The notes under the pieces were generated by a model. It was not told the DNA's origin. It did not search any database and saw only the letters and a list, made by a program, of their open reading frames with translations. A DNA stretch of 64,000 nt from an uncultured Opitutia bacterium (GTDB lineage: Bacteria > Verrucomicrobiota > Verrucomicrobiia > Opitutales > UBA953). Position 1 is the first letter of the stretch; every line of letters begins with the position of its first letter. The DNA is taken from the NCBI GenBank assembly GCA_903855995.1, contig CAIOAN010000006.1:1-64000 (forward strand). The letters are read 5' to 3'. Position numbers and translations under genes: made by a program. Shown in pieces: positions 3,524 to 33,343 of this stretch.

Positions 3524-5512
3524 ATGAGATTTCCTCTGCTCTGCCTGACGGCCTTGCTGGCCACGTTGACGCACCTCGGCGCCGAGACGCTGCCAGCCTT
3601 GAAAGACGGCAAAGTGCCGCAGAACCTCGATGAGCTCTGGGGCGATTTTGACCCGCGCAAGGAACCCCTTGAGGTCGAGGTCACCAAAGAGTGGGAGCAG
3701 GATGGCATTGTCTGTCGCGTCATCCGCTATCGCATCGGGACTTTCAAAGGTAAGCCTGCGACGATGGCGGCGTTCTACGCCTTCCCCAAAGGCGCCAAGC
3801 ACCTGCCGGCCATCCTGCAGATCCACGGCGGCGGCCAATCAGCCAGCCTCGCATCGGTAACAACCAACGCCAAACTCGGCTATGCGGGCATCTCGCTCAA
3901 TTGGGGCGGCAACAAGATGACCTTCGCCGATGGCAAGATTTACGGTGGGCCGAATACCGACTGGGGCTCGCTCGACGCCACCCACCCGCCGCAGCGCAAT
4001 AAGACCAACCACTTCGCCGGCGGCACGACGCCCGACGATTTCACGCTCGATGCCATCGATTCACCTCGCAACGACAACTGGTTCCTCGTCGCCCTAGGTG
4101 CGCGTCGCGCCCTGACCTTCCTCGAGCAACAGCCCGAAGTAGACCCGACCAAACTCGGCGTCACCGGCCACTCGATGGGAGGACGACTCACCACCATGGT
4201 CACGGGCATCGACGCACGTGTGAAAGCAGCCGTGCCTTCCTGTGGCGGCTCGGGCGACTTTACGGGCGACCCCGCGCTCGCGCCCGGTGCCCAGCCGTCC
4301 AAACGATCCGCCCTCGATTTGGCGACCATCTCTGAAAATAAATACATCGAGCGACTCAAAGTACCCACCCTGTGGTTCTCGCCGACCAATGACTTTCACG
4401 CACACATCGATAACTTTGCCTACACTTGGCGCGATGTGCCCGACCGCATCCTCGGCCTAGCCATCTCGCCACACTTCAATCACCGGCACTCCGACGACCT
4501 CAGCCTCACGGCCACGCTCTGGTTCGAGCATTACCTGAAGGGGACGTTCACCTTGCCGCCGTCACCCGGACTCCAACTCACCACCCCGACCGCCAAAGGC
4601 GAGGCCACGCTCACCGTGACGCCCGACGAATCTCGTGCGGTTAAATCGGTGCACGTCTACGTTTCCGCGGACCCGCATGCATTAACGCGCTTCTGGCGCA
4701 CCGTACCTGCCGTCAAGTCTGGCGCAAAGTGGATCGCGACTGTCACGACGCTTGAGGCGCAAGATCCGCTCTTCGCTTTCGCCAACGTCAGTTACGAGAC
4801 GCCGACAGAATATCGCAAAATCCCCAACCTGCCAGGCGTGGGATCTAGCGAGGTCTTCACCCTAAGTTCGCGCATGATTGTAACCACCGGAGCAAAACTC
4901 GCGGCCCTCGGCGTGCGCCCGACCGCCCAACGCGATCGTATGATTGATGCGGGCGCGAATGGCTGGCAGGACTGGTTCCGCCTTAACGGGGGCAACCCTG
5001 ATCACTGGCTGGCTACCACCCGCAAAGTGAAAGATCCGCTCTGGCGCGGCCCGCAGGGAGCACGCCTCGCTTTTGAAATCAACCCAGTGAATGACGCCAC
5101 CCTCTACGTGACCGTCACGCGCAACGCTTGGGGTGCCTTCGGATCGGGCACCGGCGAATACGTGGCCGCGAAGCCGATTAAAGCGAGTGGCGGATGGATG
5201 ACACTCACCTTCAGCCTGGAAGACTTCCAGCCCGTGGACGCCAAGGGCGCCCAGCCCTTAAAAGATTGGTCGACCCTGACCGACCTGAGCATCAGCGGCC
5301 ATGCGACTGTCGTGAAAGATGGCGTCAAAGTCGCCCTCCCGAGTAGTTCCTGGAAGAACGCGGATAGCCTCCGCGTACGCCAGCTGCGCTGGGTCGGCGG
5401 AGAATACCAGGGCTCGGCACCTGCTGCCGCGGAAATGACGGACGCCGAGCGCACCAAAGCCTTTAACGATTCCATCAAGGCCTCCCTCGAGCAGGAGAAG
5501 AAAGACCGGTAG
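3524..5512 (+). CDS. Secreted alpha/beta-hydrolase (acetyl-xylan-esterase / dienelactone-hydrolase-like)
   Basis: A 662-residue exported protein. It has a clear signal peptide (MRFPLLCLTALLATLTHLGA, cleaved near residue 20). The alpha/beta-hydrolase domain spans about residues 45-360. The oxyanion region HGGG is at 101-104 and the nucleophile elbow GHSMGG has Ser217. An Asp in SPTNDF and a His in HFNHRHSDD are likely triad partners. The 300-residue C-terminal half is rich in beta-type sequence and may bind a substrate, perhaps carbohydrate; this is inference. Likely role: deacetylating or hydrolysing an extracellular or periplasmic ester. It stands alone between two repeat-filled gaps. Confidence 0.72.
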   Translation: MRFPLLCLTALLATLTHLGAETLPALKDGKVPQNLDELWGDFDPRKEPLEVEVTKEWEQDGIVCRVIRYRIGTFKGKPATMAAFYAFPKGAKHLPAILQIHGGGQSASLASVTTNAKLGYAGISLNWGGNKMTFADGKIYGGPNTDWGSLDATHPPQRNKTNHFAGGTTPDDFTLDAIDSPRNDNWFLVALGARRALTFLEQQPEVDPTKLGVTGHSMGGRLTTMVTGIDARVKAAVPSCGGSGDFTGDPALAPGAQPSKRSALDLATISENKYIERLKVPTLWFSPTNDFHAHIDNFAYTWRDVPDRILGLAISPHFNHRHSDDLSLTATLWFEHYLKGTFTLPPSPGLQLTTPTAKGEATLTVTPDESRAVKSVHVYVSADPHALTRFWRTVPAVKSGAKWIATVTTLEAQDPLFAFANVSYETPTEYRKIPNLPGVGSSEVFTLSSRMIVTTGAKLAALGVRPTAQRDRMIDAGANGWQDWFRLNGGNPDHWLATTRKVKDPLWRGPQGARLAFEINPVNDATLYVTVTRNAWGAFGSGTGEYVAAKPIKASGGWMTLTFSLEDFQPVDAKGAQPLKDWSTLTDLSISGHATVVKDGVKVALPSSSWKNADSLRVRQLRWVGGEYQGSAPAAAEMTDAERTKAFNDSIKASLEQEKKDR

Positions 5513-5543
5513 TAATGAGGTAGGGACAGCACCACGTGCTGCC

Positions 5544-5601
5544 CTCGGTGCATCTAGGTAGGGCGGGCTGTCCTCGGTGCATCTAGGTAGGGCGGGCTGT
5601 C
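5544..5601. repeat. 2 x 29-bp tandem repeat
   Basis: Two exact, directly abutting copies of a 29-base unit (5544-5572 and 5573-5601). Each starts CTCGGTGCATC and contains GGTAGGGCGGGCTGTC. The second copy runs into the hairpin at 5591-5612. It looks like local duplication of a palindrome-family fragment. Confidence 0.9.
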
Positions 5602-5649
5602 CCTAGCCCGCCGTTAACCAGCAGGAGTTACGGATCTCGCATGGCGAAC

Positions 5650-5676
5650 GGACCGCTGAGGACAGCGGTCCCTACC
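5650..5676. repeat. GGACCGCTG hairpin with CCTACC flank
   Basis: Perfect 9-bp stem GGACCGCTG (5650-5658) with CAGCGGTCC (5663-5671), loop agga, then CTACC. It belongs to the same family as the elements at 3307 and 12351 by its flank. Confidence 0.75.
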
Positions 5677-5766
5677 CATTACAGGTGTCAGCGGTTAGCG
5701 GTTAGCGGCTGGGAACGGCAGAGACGTAACAAGGACAGCAGATCCCCGCGCACGCTTAGCGTGTGC

Positions 5767-6168
5767 TTACTTACAGCAACCTGGCTTGCCGGCGACGAGG
5801 TCGGCGGAGCGGGCGAGGAGGTCCTTCTTCGTGGCTTCATCGGTCGCGGAAGCGGCGAGGAGCTCGAGGGCCTTGAGATTGTTCGATTTCACCGAAGCGT
5901 GATGCGAAGCCGAGAAACGACGACGAGCCAGGCAGATGAAAGCGAGCTGTAGCGAGAGCAGCGCAACGAACCCGGTGAGGTGGCCGACAATACGTTCGGC
6001 GCTGCCGACATTACCCGTGGTGGAGTCATGAATGAATGCGGCACCGGCCTTAGCCAAGATGATCGTGACAATCACCGCGGCGACCAGGGCGCCACGAGCT
6101 GCCCAGCGGGTGCACTTGGCGGCGCGGCAGAAGACTTGGGAAGCGGAGGCAGGAGGGGTGCAGGCCAT
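5767..6168 (-). CDS. Small two-helix membrane protein, unknown function
   Basis: A 133-residue protein I do not recognise. It has two hydrophobic stretches at about residues 26-48 and 62-84, separated by a short polar loop. A basic segment and a helical, alanine-rich tail follow, ending PGCCK. The N-terminus has two cysteines (Cys3, Cys14). It converges with the esterase gene and is divergent from serB. Its codon use resembles that of its neighbours and the reading frame is clean, which supports a real gene. Confidence 0.6.
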   Translation of the reverse strand: MACTPPASASQVFCRAAKCTRWAARGALVAAVIVTIILAKAGAAFIHDSTTGNVGSAERIVGHLTGFVALLSLQLAFICLARRRFSASHHASVKSNNLKALELLAASATDEATKKDLLARSADLVAGKPGCCK

Positions 6169-6456
6169 AGTAGGAGTGACAGTGAGCAGCCTTGCCCCGC
6201 TGGCAATCCTGCATTGGCAGGGTCAGTGAGGCCAATGGAGGATGGAGTCGATGACTGCATCGAGGGCTGAATCGATGAGAACAAACAACCCTGCCACCTG
6301 CCACCCGGGGCTGCCACCCGCCACCCGAAACGAATCCCTAACCAGCATGCCTCTCGTTTAACAACGCCAGCAAGCGTCCGCCCCCATACTCGATACTCCA
6401 TACTCTCACGCACCGCCCTTTCTTGACCTTATCCGCTGCGCCCTTTCTAGTCCCAC
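6169..6456. other. Divergent intergenic region with dispersed repeats
   Basis: It should carry the promoters of the membrane-protein gene (minus) and serB (plus), but I see no convincing -35/-10 pair. It contains a segment (6244-6278) that recurs inverted at 11006-11047. Its repeated tgccacc words at 6292-6336 recur inverted after serB at 7110-7134. Confidence 0.55.
6311..6338. repeat. Left arm of inverted repeat flanking serB
   Basis: Its reverse complement contains TTCGTTTCGGGTGGC, which is exact in the right arm at 7110-7134 beyond serB. Both arms continue with further ggtggc words. Arms about 770 bases apart frame the whole serB gene. Confidence 0.75.
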
Positions 6457-7095
6457 GTGCTCAATAAGCTCCTGCTCTTCGACTGCGACTCGACGCTCTC
6501 GTCCATCGAGGGGATCGATGAGTTGGGCCGCCTGCGCGGACCGAAGGTCTTCAAGGCCGTCGAGGACATGACGAATGCGGCGATGAACGGCGGCACGCCG
6601 ATGGAGGATATTTTCGCCAAGCGCCTGGACATGATTAAGCCCACCCTCGCGGAACTTGAAGCGATTGGGGCCAAGTACATCGCGACCGTCGAGCCGACCG
6701 CGGTCGAGGCCATTGCCCAGCTCCGGGCGGCGGGCTGGCATATCGCGATCGTCAGCGGCGGCTTCACCCAGGCCATTAAACCGCTCGCCCAATTCCTCGG
6801 CATCGCCCGCGTCGAAGCGGTGGTCCTTAAATTCAATGAAGACGGCTCGTACGCCGGCTTCGACGAGACCTGCCCGACCGCTCGCTCCAAGGGCAAGAAC
6901 ATGATTGTCCGCCGCCTGCGTGCCGACTTCAAGGCCCAGATGGTCGTCATGGTCGGCGACGGCGCGAGCGATTTGGAAGTCAAAGGCGATGCCGATAAGA
7001 TGATCGGTTTCGGCCGCTACGTCGTGCGCCCCAAGGTGAAAGCTGGGGCCGATGCGTTTGTGATGTCGCTGGCGGAGTTGATTGGAGTGGTGTAA
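6457..7095 (+). CDS. serB: Phosphoserine phosphatase SerB
   Basis: Last step of serine synthesis: removes phosphate from O-phosphoserine. A 212-residue HAD-superfamily enzyme, as long as the compact SerB type without an ACT domain. Motif I is FDCDSTL (residues 8-14), with the nucleophile and acid/base Asp pair. Motif II is the Ser in IVSGGF, and motif III/IV is the lysine near SKGKN and GDGASDLEVK. The start is GTG (6457); there is no in-frame ATG that would keep motif I. The gene sits between inverted repeats in both flanks. Confidence 0.88.
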   Translation: MLNKLLLFDCDSTLSSIEGIDELGRLRGPKVFKAVEDMTNAAMNGGTPMEDIFAKRLDMIKPTLAELEAIGAKYIATVEPTAVEAIAQLRAAGWHIAIVSGGFTQAIKPLAQFLGIARVEAVVLKFNEDGSYAGFDETCPTARSKGKNMIVRRLRADFKAQMVVMVGDGASDLEVKGDADKMIGFGRYVVRPKVKAGADAFVMSLAELIGVV

Positions 7096-24871: not shown

Positions 24872-25543
24872 ATGCCTTCACCCTATCGTCCTAAGAGTCC
24901 CCGGCCTAAGAATAATAATTCGGCCCAACAACGCGGCATGTTCCGCAAAGAGGATAAGGGACCCAAGCGCAACGACCGCATCCGGGCCACCGAAGTGCGC
25001 GTCATTTCTCCGAAGGGTGAAATGATGGGCATCATGCCCACGCAGCAGGCGCTTGATCTCGCCCGTGAATTCGGCGTCGACCTGATCGAAATCGCCGCCG
25101 CTGCCGTGCCGCCCGTCTGCAAGCTGCAGGAATACGGAAAGTACCTCTACGAAGAAGCTAAGAAGCACAAGCACCAGAAGACCGCGACGAAGGTGAAGGA
25201 GATCAAACTCCGCCCGCGGATCGACGTGCATGACCTCTTCATCAAAGTGCGCCGCGCCGAGAACTTCCTGTTCCACGGACACAAGATTAAGTTGTTGCTC
25301 CAGTATCGCTACCGCGAACTCGAGCACCCCGAGATCGGTATCGCCACGATCACCAAGGCCATCGAAGCCCTGGCGCACATCAGCACGCGCGACAACGAAC
25401 CCAAGCGCAGCGGCCGCGCGATCGTTGTCGGCCTCACGCCCGTCCAGCAGAACAAGCGTAAGCTCGTGCACAACGAGACGCCCGGAGAAGAAGACGGCGA
25501 GGATGACTCCGAGGTGGACAACGGCGAGAACGACGCGGAATAA
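24872..25543 (+). CDS. infC: Translation initiation factor IF-3
   Basis: Keeps 30S subunits free and checks start codons. From ATG 24872 it is 223 residues. The N-domain has NDRIRATEVRVISPKGEMMGIMPTQQAL, then CKLQEYGKYLYEE, the linker, and the C-domain KEIKLRPRIDVHDLFIKVRRAENFLFHGHKIKLLLQYR. An acidic tail (EEDGEDDSEVDNGENDAE) extends beyond the usual IF-3 end. ATG 24938 (MFRKED) is an alternative start. It is not linked to rpmI-rplT, which are on the other strand. The next gene begins 4 bases after its stop. Confidence 0.93.
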   Translation: MPSPYRPKSPRPKNNNSAQQRGMFRKEDKGPKRNDRIRATEVRVISPKGEMMGIMPTQQALDLAREFGVDLIEIAAAAVPPVCKLQEYGKYLYEEAKKHKHQKTATKVKEIKLRPRIDVHDLFIKVRRAENFLFHGHKIKLLLQYRYRELEHPEIGIATITKAIEALAHISTRDNEPKRSGRAIVVGLTPVQQNKRKLVHNETPGEEDGEDDSEVDNGENDAE

Positions 25544-25547
25544 GAGC

Positions 25548-26525
25548 GTGCGTCGGTTCGCGGCCAGCCTCCTTCTCCTGACCATGACGGTTCAGGCTTG
25601 GGCGGCGTCCACGGGATACTACCTCGGCGACTCCCTGCGCCAGCTCGGCCTGCGCGAGCTCGAGCATCAGCGCGGCGACGCCGCCGATTCCGAGCGGCAC
25701 GGCGTCAAGGGCGGTATTGTCGTATACGCCGAACGCAGCAAGGACTTCGTGCTCGTCGATGGCGTCAAGGTCGTGCTCGAAGACGCGGTGGGCTCACTCC
25801 GGGGACACCTGACCATCTCGCGCACCGACTACGAAAAAGTCTTCGTGCCCCTGCTCTGGGGCCCGCCCCGCGCCGCCACGGCCGTGCGTCGCATCGTCCT
25901 CGACCCAGGCCACGGCGGCAAGGACCCCGGCAAGATCAACGCTGCCCTCGGCTATGCCGAGAAGGCCGCCACCCTCGACACCGCCGCCCGCCTCAAAATC
26001 GCCCTCGAAAAGCGCGGCTTCGAAGTCGTGTTTACACGCACCAAGGACGAGTTTATCGAACTGAGCGACCGACCTGATTTCGCCGCCCGCACCAAGGCCG
26101 ACCTTTTCGTCAGCCTCCACTACAATGGCGGCGGGGCGGGCGACACGACGAGCTCCGGCATTGAAACCTATTGCTTGAGCCCCGAGGGACAGCGCTCCAC
26201 GAACAGCGGCAAGGCCAAGGCCACCACCACCGCCGAGCCAGGTAATCGTTTTGACAGCGGCAACATGGCGCTCGCCTGGGGCCTGCAACGCCAGCTACTG
26301 AGCCTCACCGGTGCCGAAGACCGAGGGGTGCGCCGGGCCCGCTTCGCCGTGCTCCGCACCCTCTCTTGCCCCGGAGTGCTGGTCGAAGGCGGTTTCATCT
26401 CCAGCCGCAAGGAAGGCGCCCAAATCAAGGAAGACGCCTACCGCCAGAAGATCGCCGAGGCTGTGGCCATCGGGGTCGCCGAATACGCCGCGCGGGTGCG
26501 CCCAGCCCAGAAAACCCAGAATTAA
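25548..26525 (+). CDS. N-acetylmuramoyl-L-alanine amidase (Amidase_3), exported
   Basis: Cuts the peptide stem from MurNAc in peptidoglycan. The GTG start at 25548, 4 bases after infC, gives a 325-residue protein with signal peptide MRRFAASLLLLTMTVQAWAAS. The catalytic domain has the zinc ligands: His in VLDPGHGGKDPG, Glu in GYAEKAATL and His in FVSLHYNG. The catalytic Glu is in VLVEGGFIS. The N-terminal segment (about 25-105) resembles a small AMIN-like beta domain, uncertain. It probably acts in the periplasm in cell separation. Confidence 0.87.
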   Translation: MRRFAASLLLLTMTVQAWAASTGYYLGDSLRQLGLRELEHQRGDAADSERHGVKGGIVVYAERSKDFVLVDGVKVVLEDAVGSLRGHLTISRTDYEKVFVPLLWGPPRAATAVRRIVLDPGHGGKDPGKINAALGYAEKAATLDTAARLKIALEKRGFEVVFTRTKDEFIELSDRPDFAARTKADLFVSLHYNGGGAGDTTSSGIETYCLSPEGQRSTNSGKAKATTTAEPGNRFDSGNMALAWGLQRQLLSLTGAEDRGVRRARFAVLRTLSCPGVLVEGGFISSRKEGAQIKEDAYRQKIAEAVAIGVAEYAARVRPAQKTQN

Positions 26526-31182: not shown

Positions 31183-31659
31183 ATGTCCCAAGGCCACCGC
31201 CATGAGGAGGGTTGCTGCGGCGAAGGCTCCGGCGATCGCATCGAGGCGGCCGTCGCCCGCATGAAGGAGAAGTCCCTCCGCGTGACCTCGCCCAGGATGG
31301 CCATGCTCAAGGCACTGGCCGCCGCCAAGCACCCGTTGAGCGCCGAGCAGATCCACTCCGCGGCCGGCGACACCAAACTGGACCTCGTGACGGTCTACCG
31401 AAGCCTCGGCGCCATGGAAGATGCCGGCATCGTGCAACGCCACCCCCTCGAGCGAGGCCGCAGCCTCTATGCGCTCGTCTCCCCCGGGCACCACCATCAC
31501 CACGTCATCTGCCGTCAATGCGGCCGCATCGAGCGACTTCCCGGCTGCGACTCCAGCCGCATCGAAGCCGCCGCCCGTCAGCGAGGCTTCAGCGACCTCA
31601 CCCATATCATGGAGGTCTATGGCGTCTGCCCGACCTGCCTCAAAAAATCTCATGTCTGA
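31183..31659 (+). CDS. Fur-family metal-dependent transcription regulator
   Basis: A 158-residue regulator with an N-terminal winged helix (RVTSPRMAMLKALAAAKHPLSAEQI...LDLVTVYRSLGAMEDAGIV) and a C-terminal metal-binding dimer domain. A histidine-rich segment (HHHHHVICRQCG) and two CxxC pairs (CRQC, CPTC) give the structural zinc site, which is complete. An extra N-terminal His/Cys stretch (GHRHEEGCC) may bind metal. Fur, Zur or PerR identity is not decidable; the five-His run favours Zur-like zinc sensing. Its 3' end overlaps the next gene by 8 bases. Confidence 0.88.
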   Translation: MSQGHRHEEGCCGEGSGDRIEAAVARMKEKSLRVTSPRMAMLKALAAAKHPLSAEQIHSAAGDTKLDLVTVYRSLGAMEDAGIVQRHPLERGRSLYALVSPGHHHHHVICRQCGRIERLPGCDSSRIEAAARQRGFSDLTHIMEVYGVCPTCLKKSHV

Positions 31660-33332
31660 TTTCCCCCGCACTGCCTTCATTCTCGGAGCCGGCCTAGGCA
31701 CCCGCCTGCGCCCGCTCACCGAGCACTGCCCCAAGCCCCTGCTGCCGATCGCCGGACGACCGATGGTCCTGCAGGCCATGGAAAAACTCCGCGCCGCCGG
31801 CACGCGCCGCTTTATCATCAACACGCATCACTGCCCCGAAGTCTGGGCGCAGACCTTCCCCGAAGGTAAGTTCGGCGAAGCCGAAGTGAAGCTCGTGCAT
31901 GAACCTGTCATCCTCGAAACCGGCGGCGGCCTGGCCAATATCGCGGGCCTGCTCGGCGACCAAGACACCGATCTTGTGATCTGGAACGGAGACATTCTCT
32001 CCGGCTGCGACATCGTCGCCGCCGTCGCCCATCACCGTGACAATGGTGGAGCCGCCACGCTCGTCGTGCGCGAACAAGGCCCCGTGCGCAACGTGCGCAT
32101 CACCGACGACGGCCTCGTGACCGACATGCGTGATCGCCTGGGCAAGAGCGATCCTTGCTACCAATACACCGGGATCTGCGTCGTCACCAAGGCGTTCGCA
32201 CAAGGCGTTCCCGCGACGATGGAATCGCTCGTCGAACATTTCCTACGACAGATCCAGGCCCAGCCTGGCAGCATTCAGGGCTACCTTGACGCCTCGACCA
32301 CTTGGCACGATCTGGGCACCCTCGAAGAATACCAAGCTGTCAAAGCCCAGCAGGAGAAGCCCCTCCGTGGAGTGATCTCCCCGGCCGACGCTGCGAAAGC
32401 CCACGGCTACGAACTCACCTCCGGCGGCGAAGTGCTCAAAGGCGGTTCGGGTCGAAAGTTCCAGCGCGTACGCAATGCCGCGGGGGAATCTGCCGTCCTG
32501 TGCGTCTATGACGATTCGCGCCCGGAGAACCTCATCTACGGCAGCCTCGCCTCGGTGCTGCGCGAGAAGATTGGCGCCAACATCCCCGCGGTCATCGCGG
32601 AAGACAAAGACGCCGGCGTGCTCATTCTTGAAGACCTCGGCTCGACCGATCTCTGGACCTGCGCGCAGGCCGCCGAATTCCCGTGGGCGGCTTTCGCCTC
32701 GGCCCTGGAGCAAGCAGCGGCCATCCATCGCCACGGAGCCGAAGCCATCGCCGCCGCCGGCATCACCCTCATGGAGGCCTTTGGTCCGAATCTCTATCAA
32801 TGGGAGCGTCAATATTTCCAGGACAACGTCCTCGCCGGCCGCAAGGTCGACCGCGGCGTGCTCGACGAGATGGCCGCACTCGGCAAGGATCTCGGCACCC
32901 AGTCGCCCGTCACGATCCACCGCGACTTCCAGTCGCAGAATATCATGGTCCGTGACAACCAGGCTTGGCTGATCGACTTCCAGGGCATGCGTCACGGCAG
33001 CATGTTCTACGATTTCGCCTCGCTCGCTTTCGACCCGTATCTCACGCGCACGGACATGGACCTGTGGCGCATCGAGATCGAGGACCACGCCCGTGAAGTT
33101 TCCGACTGGAAGGGCTCGAGCGATGAGTTCTCACACTACTTCCACGTCGCCGCCACGCAGCGCCTGCTACAAGCCTGCGGTGCCTACGGATTCCTGGGCA
33201 ACAAGAAGGGTCGCCCGGAATACCTCGCGCACCTGCCGCAAGGCCTGCGCAACCTGACCATCGCCGCCTCCCTCTGCGGGAAGCGACGTCTGGCCAAGCT
33301 GGCGGAAGATCTCGCGGCGACCCCGCCGAAGG

Positions 33333-33343
<11 letters not shown>
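31652..33343 (+). CDS. Fused nucleotidyltransferase-sugar kinase (MurU-AmgK-like)
   Basis: A 563-residue two-domain protein. Residues 1-235 are a sugar-phosphate nucleotidyltransferase: [21 protein letters not shown] (11-33), ETGGG (89-93) and metal Asp114 in WNGD. Residues 250-563 are an aminoglycoside-phosphotransferase-type kinase: catalytic Asp425 in HRDFQSQN (423-430) and Asp442 in IDFQ. In Pseudomonas, separate AmgK and MurU turn MurNAc into MurNAc-1-P and then UDP-MurNAc, bypassing de novo synthesis. The DFQ motif and ETGGG favour this over a LicA/LicC-like choline pair, but the substrate is inference. Its ATG lies inside the fur gene's end; it converges with and overlaps glyQS by 11 bases. 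Confidence 0.75.

Follow-up and report, generated by a model that had tools for sequence, protein, structure and literature searches.

The window analysed here, a stretch of 64,000 nucleotides from an uncultured Opitutia bacterium of the phylum Verrucomicrobiota, carries a gene in which a MurU-like nucleotidyltransferase and an AmgK-like kinase are joined in one polypeptide chain. We propose, with a probability of about 0.7 and from sequence comparison, that the product is a bifunctional N-acetylmuramic acid (MurNAc) 1-kinase and MurNAc-1-phosphate (MurNAc-1-P) uridylyltransferase, acting in the salvage of free MurNAc beside intact MurA and MurB. In such a route, the C-terminal AmgK-type domain would phosphorylate free MurNAc, and probably also GlcNAc, at the anomeric carbon with ATP, and the N-terminal MurU-type domain would convert MurNAc-alpha-1-phosphate and UTP into UDP-MurNAc and pyrophosphate. 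The UDP-MurNAc would enter peptidoglycan synthesis past MurA and MurB. The MurNAc used would be the free sugar, most likely released by NamZ outside the cytoplasm and not derived by AnmK from anhydro-MurNAc, and a MurK-MurQ-type fusion of the same genome could degrade the same MurNAc. The substrate, the base, the product, and the order of events are those that we infer from observations of the fusion and its conservation, the family matches, the gene inventory, and the adjacency of NamZ in other families of the phylum.

The preliminary description of this DNA had called the gene a natural MurU-AmgK-like fusion, with a nucleotidyltransferase and an APH-type kinase in a single chain. That arrangement is confirmed by an intact frame with zero internal stops, by two Pfam matches (NTP_transferase at 3.6e-20, residues 8-141, and APH at 1.4e-16, residues 263-466), and by 28 intact relatives. 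The motifs quoted earlier are all present, with ETGGG at residues 89-93 and WNGD and the two kinase motifs at the places listed in Table 1; we take HRDFQSQN to be the catalytic loop and IDFQ to lie at the place of the metal-binding motif in such kinases. The fusion gene shares its first 8 bases with the 3' end of a Fur-family regulator gene and its last 11 with the convergent glyS. The genome to which the window belongs (G000) comprises 2.66 Mb in 13 contigs and is 97% complete. An AlphaFold2 model of the protein, calculated from an alignment of 29 rows with 68-94% identity, was too poor for use (mean pLDDT 52.6, pTM 0.37). The window also encodes an N-acetylmuramoyl-L-alanine amidase (Amidase_3, 3.1e-44) at 25230-26525, some 5 kb before the start of the fusion.

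Table 1. Features of the fusion gene and its upstream neighbour, in window coordinates.
Feature	Position	Strand	Basis
Complete fusion gene, 563 aa and stop codon	31652..33343	+	Translated frame; intact in relatives
MurU-like nucleotidyltransferase domain, residues 8-231	31673..32344	+	NCBIfam MurU NF045761, 1.1e-34; PDB 4y7t, 1.7e-18
Nucleotide-binding signature, residues 12-21	31685..31714	+	GXGXR signature (excerpt of PMC6981941)
Asn57, aligned with the UTP-holding Asn52 of P. putida MurU	31820..31822	+	Alignment; invariant in 69/69; role from an excerpt of PMC6981941
LETGGG loop, residues 88-93, with the acidic residue common to MurU references	31913..31930	+	Alignments
WNGD, residues 111-114, Asp invariant in 69/69	31982..31993	+	Alignment
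Short linker, residues 232-262, separating both family matches	32345..32437	+	Domain match boundaries
AmgK-like APH-fold kinase domain, residues about 263-540	32438..33271	+	NCBIfam AmgK NF045759, 3.9e-15; PDB 3csv, 6.6e-12
Catalytic-loop motif HRDFQSQN, residues 423-430	32918..32941	+	H, R, D, Q427, and N invariant in 71/71
IDFQ, residues 441-444, at the metal-binding motif place of APH-type kinases	32972..32983	+	D442 and Q444 invariant in 71/71
Upstream Fur-family regulator gene (context; no functional tie to the fusion implied)	31183..31659	+	Pfam FUR, 9.6e-23; synteny

A scan of a genome collection for relatives of the fusion yielded 32 loci, mostly in assemblies named as uncultured Opitutae or Verrucomicrobia. 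One locus (L029) was set aside, as its stretch matching the fusion, at 5001-6662, contains an in-frame stop, which may be a sequencing error or a genuine break; two others (L033 and L034) are parts of one gene lying on two contigs of the same assembly, and the match in L035 covers only 51 residues of the transferase. The fusion is intact in 28 Opitutae relatives from other assemblies, with 68-94% identity, which argues against a chance or joining error as its origin. The fur gene lies upstream in all 30 of the loci L004-L033 (in L004, the match is limited to fur residues 65-158), and glyS lies downstream in 29 of these 30, three of the glyS matches being cut by a contig end, while the remaining contig ends before glyS. 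Two assemblies titled Akkermansia muciniphila (L005) and Polynucleobacter (L018) carry an Opitutae fusion with the same fur and glyS neighbours and are probably misnamed bins.

Across the phylum, 154 of 288 Verrucomicrobiota genomes match the whole fusion protein at E<=1e-20 and are called carriers here, although one domain alone can reach this threshold. The arrangement was inspected in 73 genomes, namely that of the window and 72 others picked among the better matches, which do not form a random sample: 49 are fused, 18 are split, and 6 are undecided, with a single part above the threshold in the stretch taken (one of these, G252, is fused under looser criteria). The two parts of the split forms are separate frames, located within one stretch in 10 genomes and in different stretches in 8. 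In four of the 18 (G265/L087, G166/L089, G008/L092, and G234/L146), they share one reading frame with a single stop codon between them; such splits may have arisen by fission not long ago or mark an intermediate on the way to fusion, or the stop may occasionally be read through. Split forms also occur inside the family of the window (G149 and G175), and two genomes of one genus, with neighbours in common, differ in being split (G131) and fused (G210). The linker of some fusions is about as short as that of the window protein, while others have linkers 65-90 residues longer. The two domains, fused or split, mostly persist together. Their trees have similar main groupings and differ in deep placement; such similarity is expected for partners staying together through fissions or fusions.

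The identity of the kinase half is the clearer of the two. Among 18950 NCBIfam models, AmgK (NF045759) is its top kinase match at 3.9e-15, followed by the next unrelated family at 1.9e-4, a gap of ten orders of magnitude, so that the AmgK-like identity proposed earlier is supported. Of the 71 kinase relatives, one AmgK model matches all and the other 70, the next family reaching 49. The kinase profile has one strong match among solved structures, 3csv at 2e-48, titled aminoglycoside phosphotransferase, with the next at 5.2e-5. H423, R424, D425, Q427, N430, D442, and Q444 are invariant throughout the 71 relatives. Choline and heptose kinases, which the preliminary description had named as possible better matches, were rejected, none of their models matching any of the 71 relatives at E<=0.001. 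Aminoglycoside kinases were rejected as well: such models match at most 6 of the 71, and AmgK leads for the window protein. Another candidate, a maltokinase-like kinase of the GlgE pathway to which an unrelated transferase has become attached, draws on the position of GlgE, which is the next gene after the split kinase in two genomes (G125 and G217) and is 0.9 kb away from it in a third (G066). However, this context occurs in only 3 of the 73 genomes, all of one class, and maltokinase models are missing among the 21 families matched by the 71 kinases, which makes this explanation hardly credible. The two GlgE maltosyltransferases next to the split kinase are at L091 (8886-10847), where Pfam confirms the assignment, and at L093 (5894-7891), where the gene ends overlap with the split kinase. 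We predict that the C-terminal domain has MurNAc 1-kinase activity, as its family matches suggest.

The transferase half is closest to MurU by a smaller margin. We take the structure 4y7t to be MurU of P. putida and 8hhd to be that of P. aeruginosa. The transferase sequence finds 4y7t first among solved structures (1.7e-18, next 2.1e-16), and so does its profile, again with a small margin (3.6e-47, next 6.4e-44). In contrast, the curated MurU model, at 120.3 bits, is tied with a mannose-1-phosphate guanylyltransferase model, man1P_GTase_Rv (NF052502), at 120.4 bits, and thus sequence scores alone leave the sugar unsettled. A Bacteroidales MurU, unlike the window protein, clearly favours the MurU model (146 vs. 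80 bits). An excerpt of PMC6981941 states that UTP is held by Asn52 in P. putida MurU and that the corresponding residue of HddC is Ser. Residue 52 of 4y7t, likewise an Asn, aligns without gaps to Asn57 of the window transferase, which is invariant in all 69 transferase relatives; since one HddC reference (L131) also aligns an Asn here, this residue is consistent with UTP without being exclusive to it. The earlier proposal of a MurU-like transferase is favoured by the best solved structure and Asn57, and is weakened by the tie of the curated models. Together with the AmgK-led kinase, the leading place of MurU among solved transferase structures, by its small margin, supports the name of natural MurU-AmgK-like fusion.

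A second feature is the acidic residue of the L(E/D)TGGG motif, Glu89 in the window protein. Glu or Asp is found here in all 23 members of the class to which the window belongs and in all six MurU-type references (Bacteroides, Parabacteroides, Acinetobacter, Halomonas, 4y7t, and 8hhd); in other classes, 0 of 46 members are acidic at this position, all 46 having Gly or Asn. The L(E/D)T(G/A)GG acidic signature was derived here from these six references and is not a published one. Gly is the residue of the HddC, PtmE, Tsukamurella, and mannose-1-P references, and its presence in 39 of the 46 members from other classes would fit a guanylyltransferase for the 1-phosphate of mannose, heptose, or a similar sugar, joined to a sugar kinase and serving glycan synthesis. 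The tied models, the solved mannose-1-P transferases that closely follow MurU, and a glycosyltransferase-like ORF, named by eye, that adjoins the gene in 4 of the 73 genomes point in the same direction. The window protein, however, carries the acidic residue and matches the HddC model with 39.5 bits only, its Asn57 sits where MurU holds UTP, and HddC in L131 is accompanied by a GHMP kinase rather than by an APH-fold kinase; we thus regard a guanylyltransferase as quite improbable. In a midpoint-rooted transferase tree, the MurU references group with HddC, PtmE, and Tsukamurella and not with the proteins of this phylum, with weak support (0.17-0.86). Returning to the salvage enzyme, we consider the N-terminal domain a putative MurNAc-1-P uridylyltransferase.

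Both domains score far below the curated cut-offs: the kinase reaches 55.8 bits of the 550 set for AmgK (NF045759) and the transferase 120.3 of the 250 set for MurU (NF045761), which bars filing the window protein as a formal member of either family. The AmgK copies of Caulobacter, Bacteroidales, and Acinetobacter likewise miss the 550-bit cut-off, and the Bacteroidales MurU (134-146 bits) also falls below 250, while that of Acinetobacter passes at 313.9. The AmgK and MurU of Parabacteroides, which like Tannerella is a member of the Tannerellaceae, score 71.2 and 146.2 bits, compared with 55.8 and 120.3 for the window domains, and those of Bacteroides score 64 and 134. According to excerpts of the respective papers, AmgK and MurU of T. 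forsythia enable the incorporation of MurNAc probes in E. coli (PMC13041923), and AmgK of Caulobacter is genetically needed for MurNAc consumption (PMC13046382). Because the Tannerellaceae pair and the Caulobacter AmgK score low too, a missed cut-off is weak evidence against function.

The neighbourhood of the gene was searched for NamZ, an exo-N-acetylmuramidase family, because this enzyme would supply free MurNAc. In four genomes from four families (G074, G110, G124, and G139), the gene directly preceding the fusion, and on its strand, encodes NamZ, and in G145 NamZ is about 3.4 kb upstream, which gives 5 of the 73 genomes searched; G165, with NamZ about 2 kb upstream, was added afterwards, its NamZ having already been seen nearby. 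By chance, 0.27 such cases would be expected in 67 genomes, compared with 5 observed, if genomes are taken as independent and 3 Mb in size and the reach as 6 kb. All six genomes belong to classes other than that of the window, and their transferases lack the acidic motif residue; the NamZ context and the acidic motif, both of which speak for MurNAc, are thus found in separate branches of the family. In the class of the window, neighbourhood clustering recognised no recycling genes next to the fusion, and across 80 stretches of 72 genomes and the window no recycling neighbours were recognised beyond NamZ, the neighbours being crude longest-frame ORFs identified by Pfam checks where these were made and otherwise by eye. 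In 8 genomes, the gene that follows the fusion encodes a member of an uncharacterised family, which occupies similar sites in genomes of families f33 and f35; its 725-aa member at L074 (9078-11255) is Pfam-negative at E<=1e-5.

At the level of whole genomes, NamZ is found in 108 of the 154 carriers and 62 of the 134 others (p 4e-5, with related genomes treated as independent), and this co-occurrence is given little weight since related genomes are not independent. MurQ does not co-occur with the fusion (19 of 154 carriers, 23 of 134 others, p 0.32). One genus, g28, which at a guess is Akkermansia-like, matches the fusion in all 22 of its genomes, and NamZ, AnmK, and a strong MurQ were found in none of them; the two genomes inspected are split. 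Such genomes would suit the main rival explanation, a kinase and nucleotidyltransferase of the same build acting on the anomeric position of another N-acetylhexosamine, chiefly GlcNAc or GalNAc, and yielding UDP-GlcNAc or UDP-GalNAc instead of UDP-MurNAc. The AmgK model NF045759 is itself annotated as a MurNAc/GlcNAc kinase, and the transferase models are not decisive. On the other hand, the MurNAc-releasing NamZ is a direct neighbour of the fusion in four genomes of four families, MurU ranks first among solved structures, and the UTP-holding Asn is invariant; on balance, we consider another N-acetylhexosamine an unlikely substrate, and MurNAc is retained as the preferred one.

The source of this MurNAc was sought in the gene inventory of the window's genome. 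The preliminary description had placed the fusion within anhydro-MurNAc recycling of the Pseudomonas type, and this claim was not supported. AnmK is absent from the matches of the genome, and in the 288 Verrucomicrobiota genomes it is found in 9 at over 190 bits, with 2 of the 154 carriers having it. GH3 (PF00933) has zero matches in this 97% complete genome, and hence NagZ was not found, so that the Pseudomonas route would here be without its anhydro-sugar kinase and hexosaminidase. Searches for other components gave an AmpG-like match of 106 bits against a cut-off of 350, an Amidase_2 match of 5.6e-27 in the search for an AmpD-type amidase, and, in the search for the importer MurT, a DUF5009 match of 26.9 bits (cut-off 25), the family to which MurT presumably belongs. 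De novo synthesis is represented by MurA (516 bits), with Cys in PGGCVIG, which we take to be the fosfomycin-sensitive type, and by MurB (MurB_C, 3.1e-32). Many of the MurB_C matches, such as that at C1:42320, fall within open frames of 735-850 aa, which may indicate a fusion of MurB to another protein.

The same genome encodes NamZ on a contig other than that of the fusion; the match to its C-terminal domain is weak (34.7 bits), and its start, judged by eye, resembles a lipoprotein signal. On contig C13 (L124, 4046-5827), it also encodes a 593-aa protein of the MurK-MurQ type, in which a BadF/BadG-type kinase is fused to a MurNAc-6-P etherase. The kinase half matches the GlcNAc kinase model NF046058 (72 bits), and for this reason its role as MurK is treated as putative. 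In a relative from the same order (L181, G010 contig C25, 482-500 kb), where the match to the fusion is weak (best 9.3e-11), AnmK, MurQ, an AmpG-like permease, Amidase_2, NamZ, and a GH3 enzyme are grouped within about 10 kb; it may be that one kind of recycling takes the place of another among the members of this order.

A broader reading, to which we give somewhat less than even odds, is that an AnmK-independent route extends throughout the phylum: NamZ would free MurNAc, and one bifunctional enzyme would convert it to UDP-MurNAc, passing MurNAc-1-phosphate from domain to domain within the molecule. The second bifunctional enzyme of the window's organism, of the MurK-MurQ type, would compete for the sugar, and the choice between building and burning it would be set between two fused proteins. 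The activities of AmgK and MurU are already known. Among the matches listed in the open-licence literature, as represented by titles and the beginnings of abstracts, none described a naturally fused AmgK-MurU protein, its phylum-wide fused form, AnmK independence, or NamZ linkage. If the reading is correct, MurNAc is salvaged straight into a cell wall precursor in a large phylum that has received little study, without the anhydro-sugar kinase of Pseudomonas and often by means of one polypeptide. It would also predict fosfomycin tolerance dependent on MurNAc supply, and a single gene could replace the AmgK and MurU pair in labelling with MurNAc probes. The natural fused and split versions within one genus offer material for asking whether fusion gives channelling.

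In Pseudomonas, AmgK, an anomeric kinase for MurNAc and GlcNAc, and MurU, a MurNAc-1-P uridylyltransferase, are two separate enzymes. The window protein has in common with them both domain families, the Asn of the UTP pocket, and the LETGGG motif; it differs in being fused, in the order MurU-AmgK, in scores far under the curated cut-offs, and in a genome in which AnmK and NagZ were not detected. HddC, PtmE, and mannose-1-P guanylyltransferases share the transferase family and the GXGXR signature with it, but their motif has Gly where the window protein has its acidic residue, and the partner of HddC in L131 is a GHMP-type kinase. In Bacteroidales (L125 and L128), a kinase and a MurU are about as distant from the curated models as the window domains; there, however, the kinase is fused to a RapZ C-terminal domain and MurU is a separate downstream gene. 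These AmgK-like kinases (L125, 3935-5365; L128, 2935-4365) are annotated as RNase adapter RapZ, and it is possible that such naming hides a link between amino-sugar sensing and wall salvage.

The closest likeness in gene content is to Tannerella forsythia. According to an excerpt of PMC7670621, this bacterium lacks AnmK and imports free MurNAc, which is then used by AmgK/MurU or MurK/MurQ, and a title in the reference list of PMC10465942 names NamZ1 and NamZ2 as exo-muramidases. As far as these excerpts go, AnmK is missing in both organisms, and both have NamZ, MurK/MurQ-type enzymes, and the AmgK/MurU pair. In contrast to T. forsythia, which is without MurA and MurB, the window's genome has these two enzymes intact, both of its salvage pairs are fused, and its match to MurT, which is part of the T. 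forsythia route, is not a confident one. By analogy, its gene set resembles that for the use of free MurNAc in T. forsythia.
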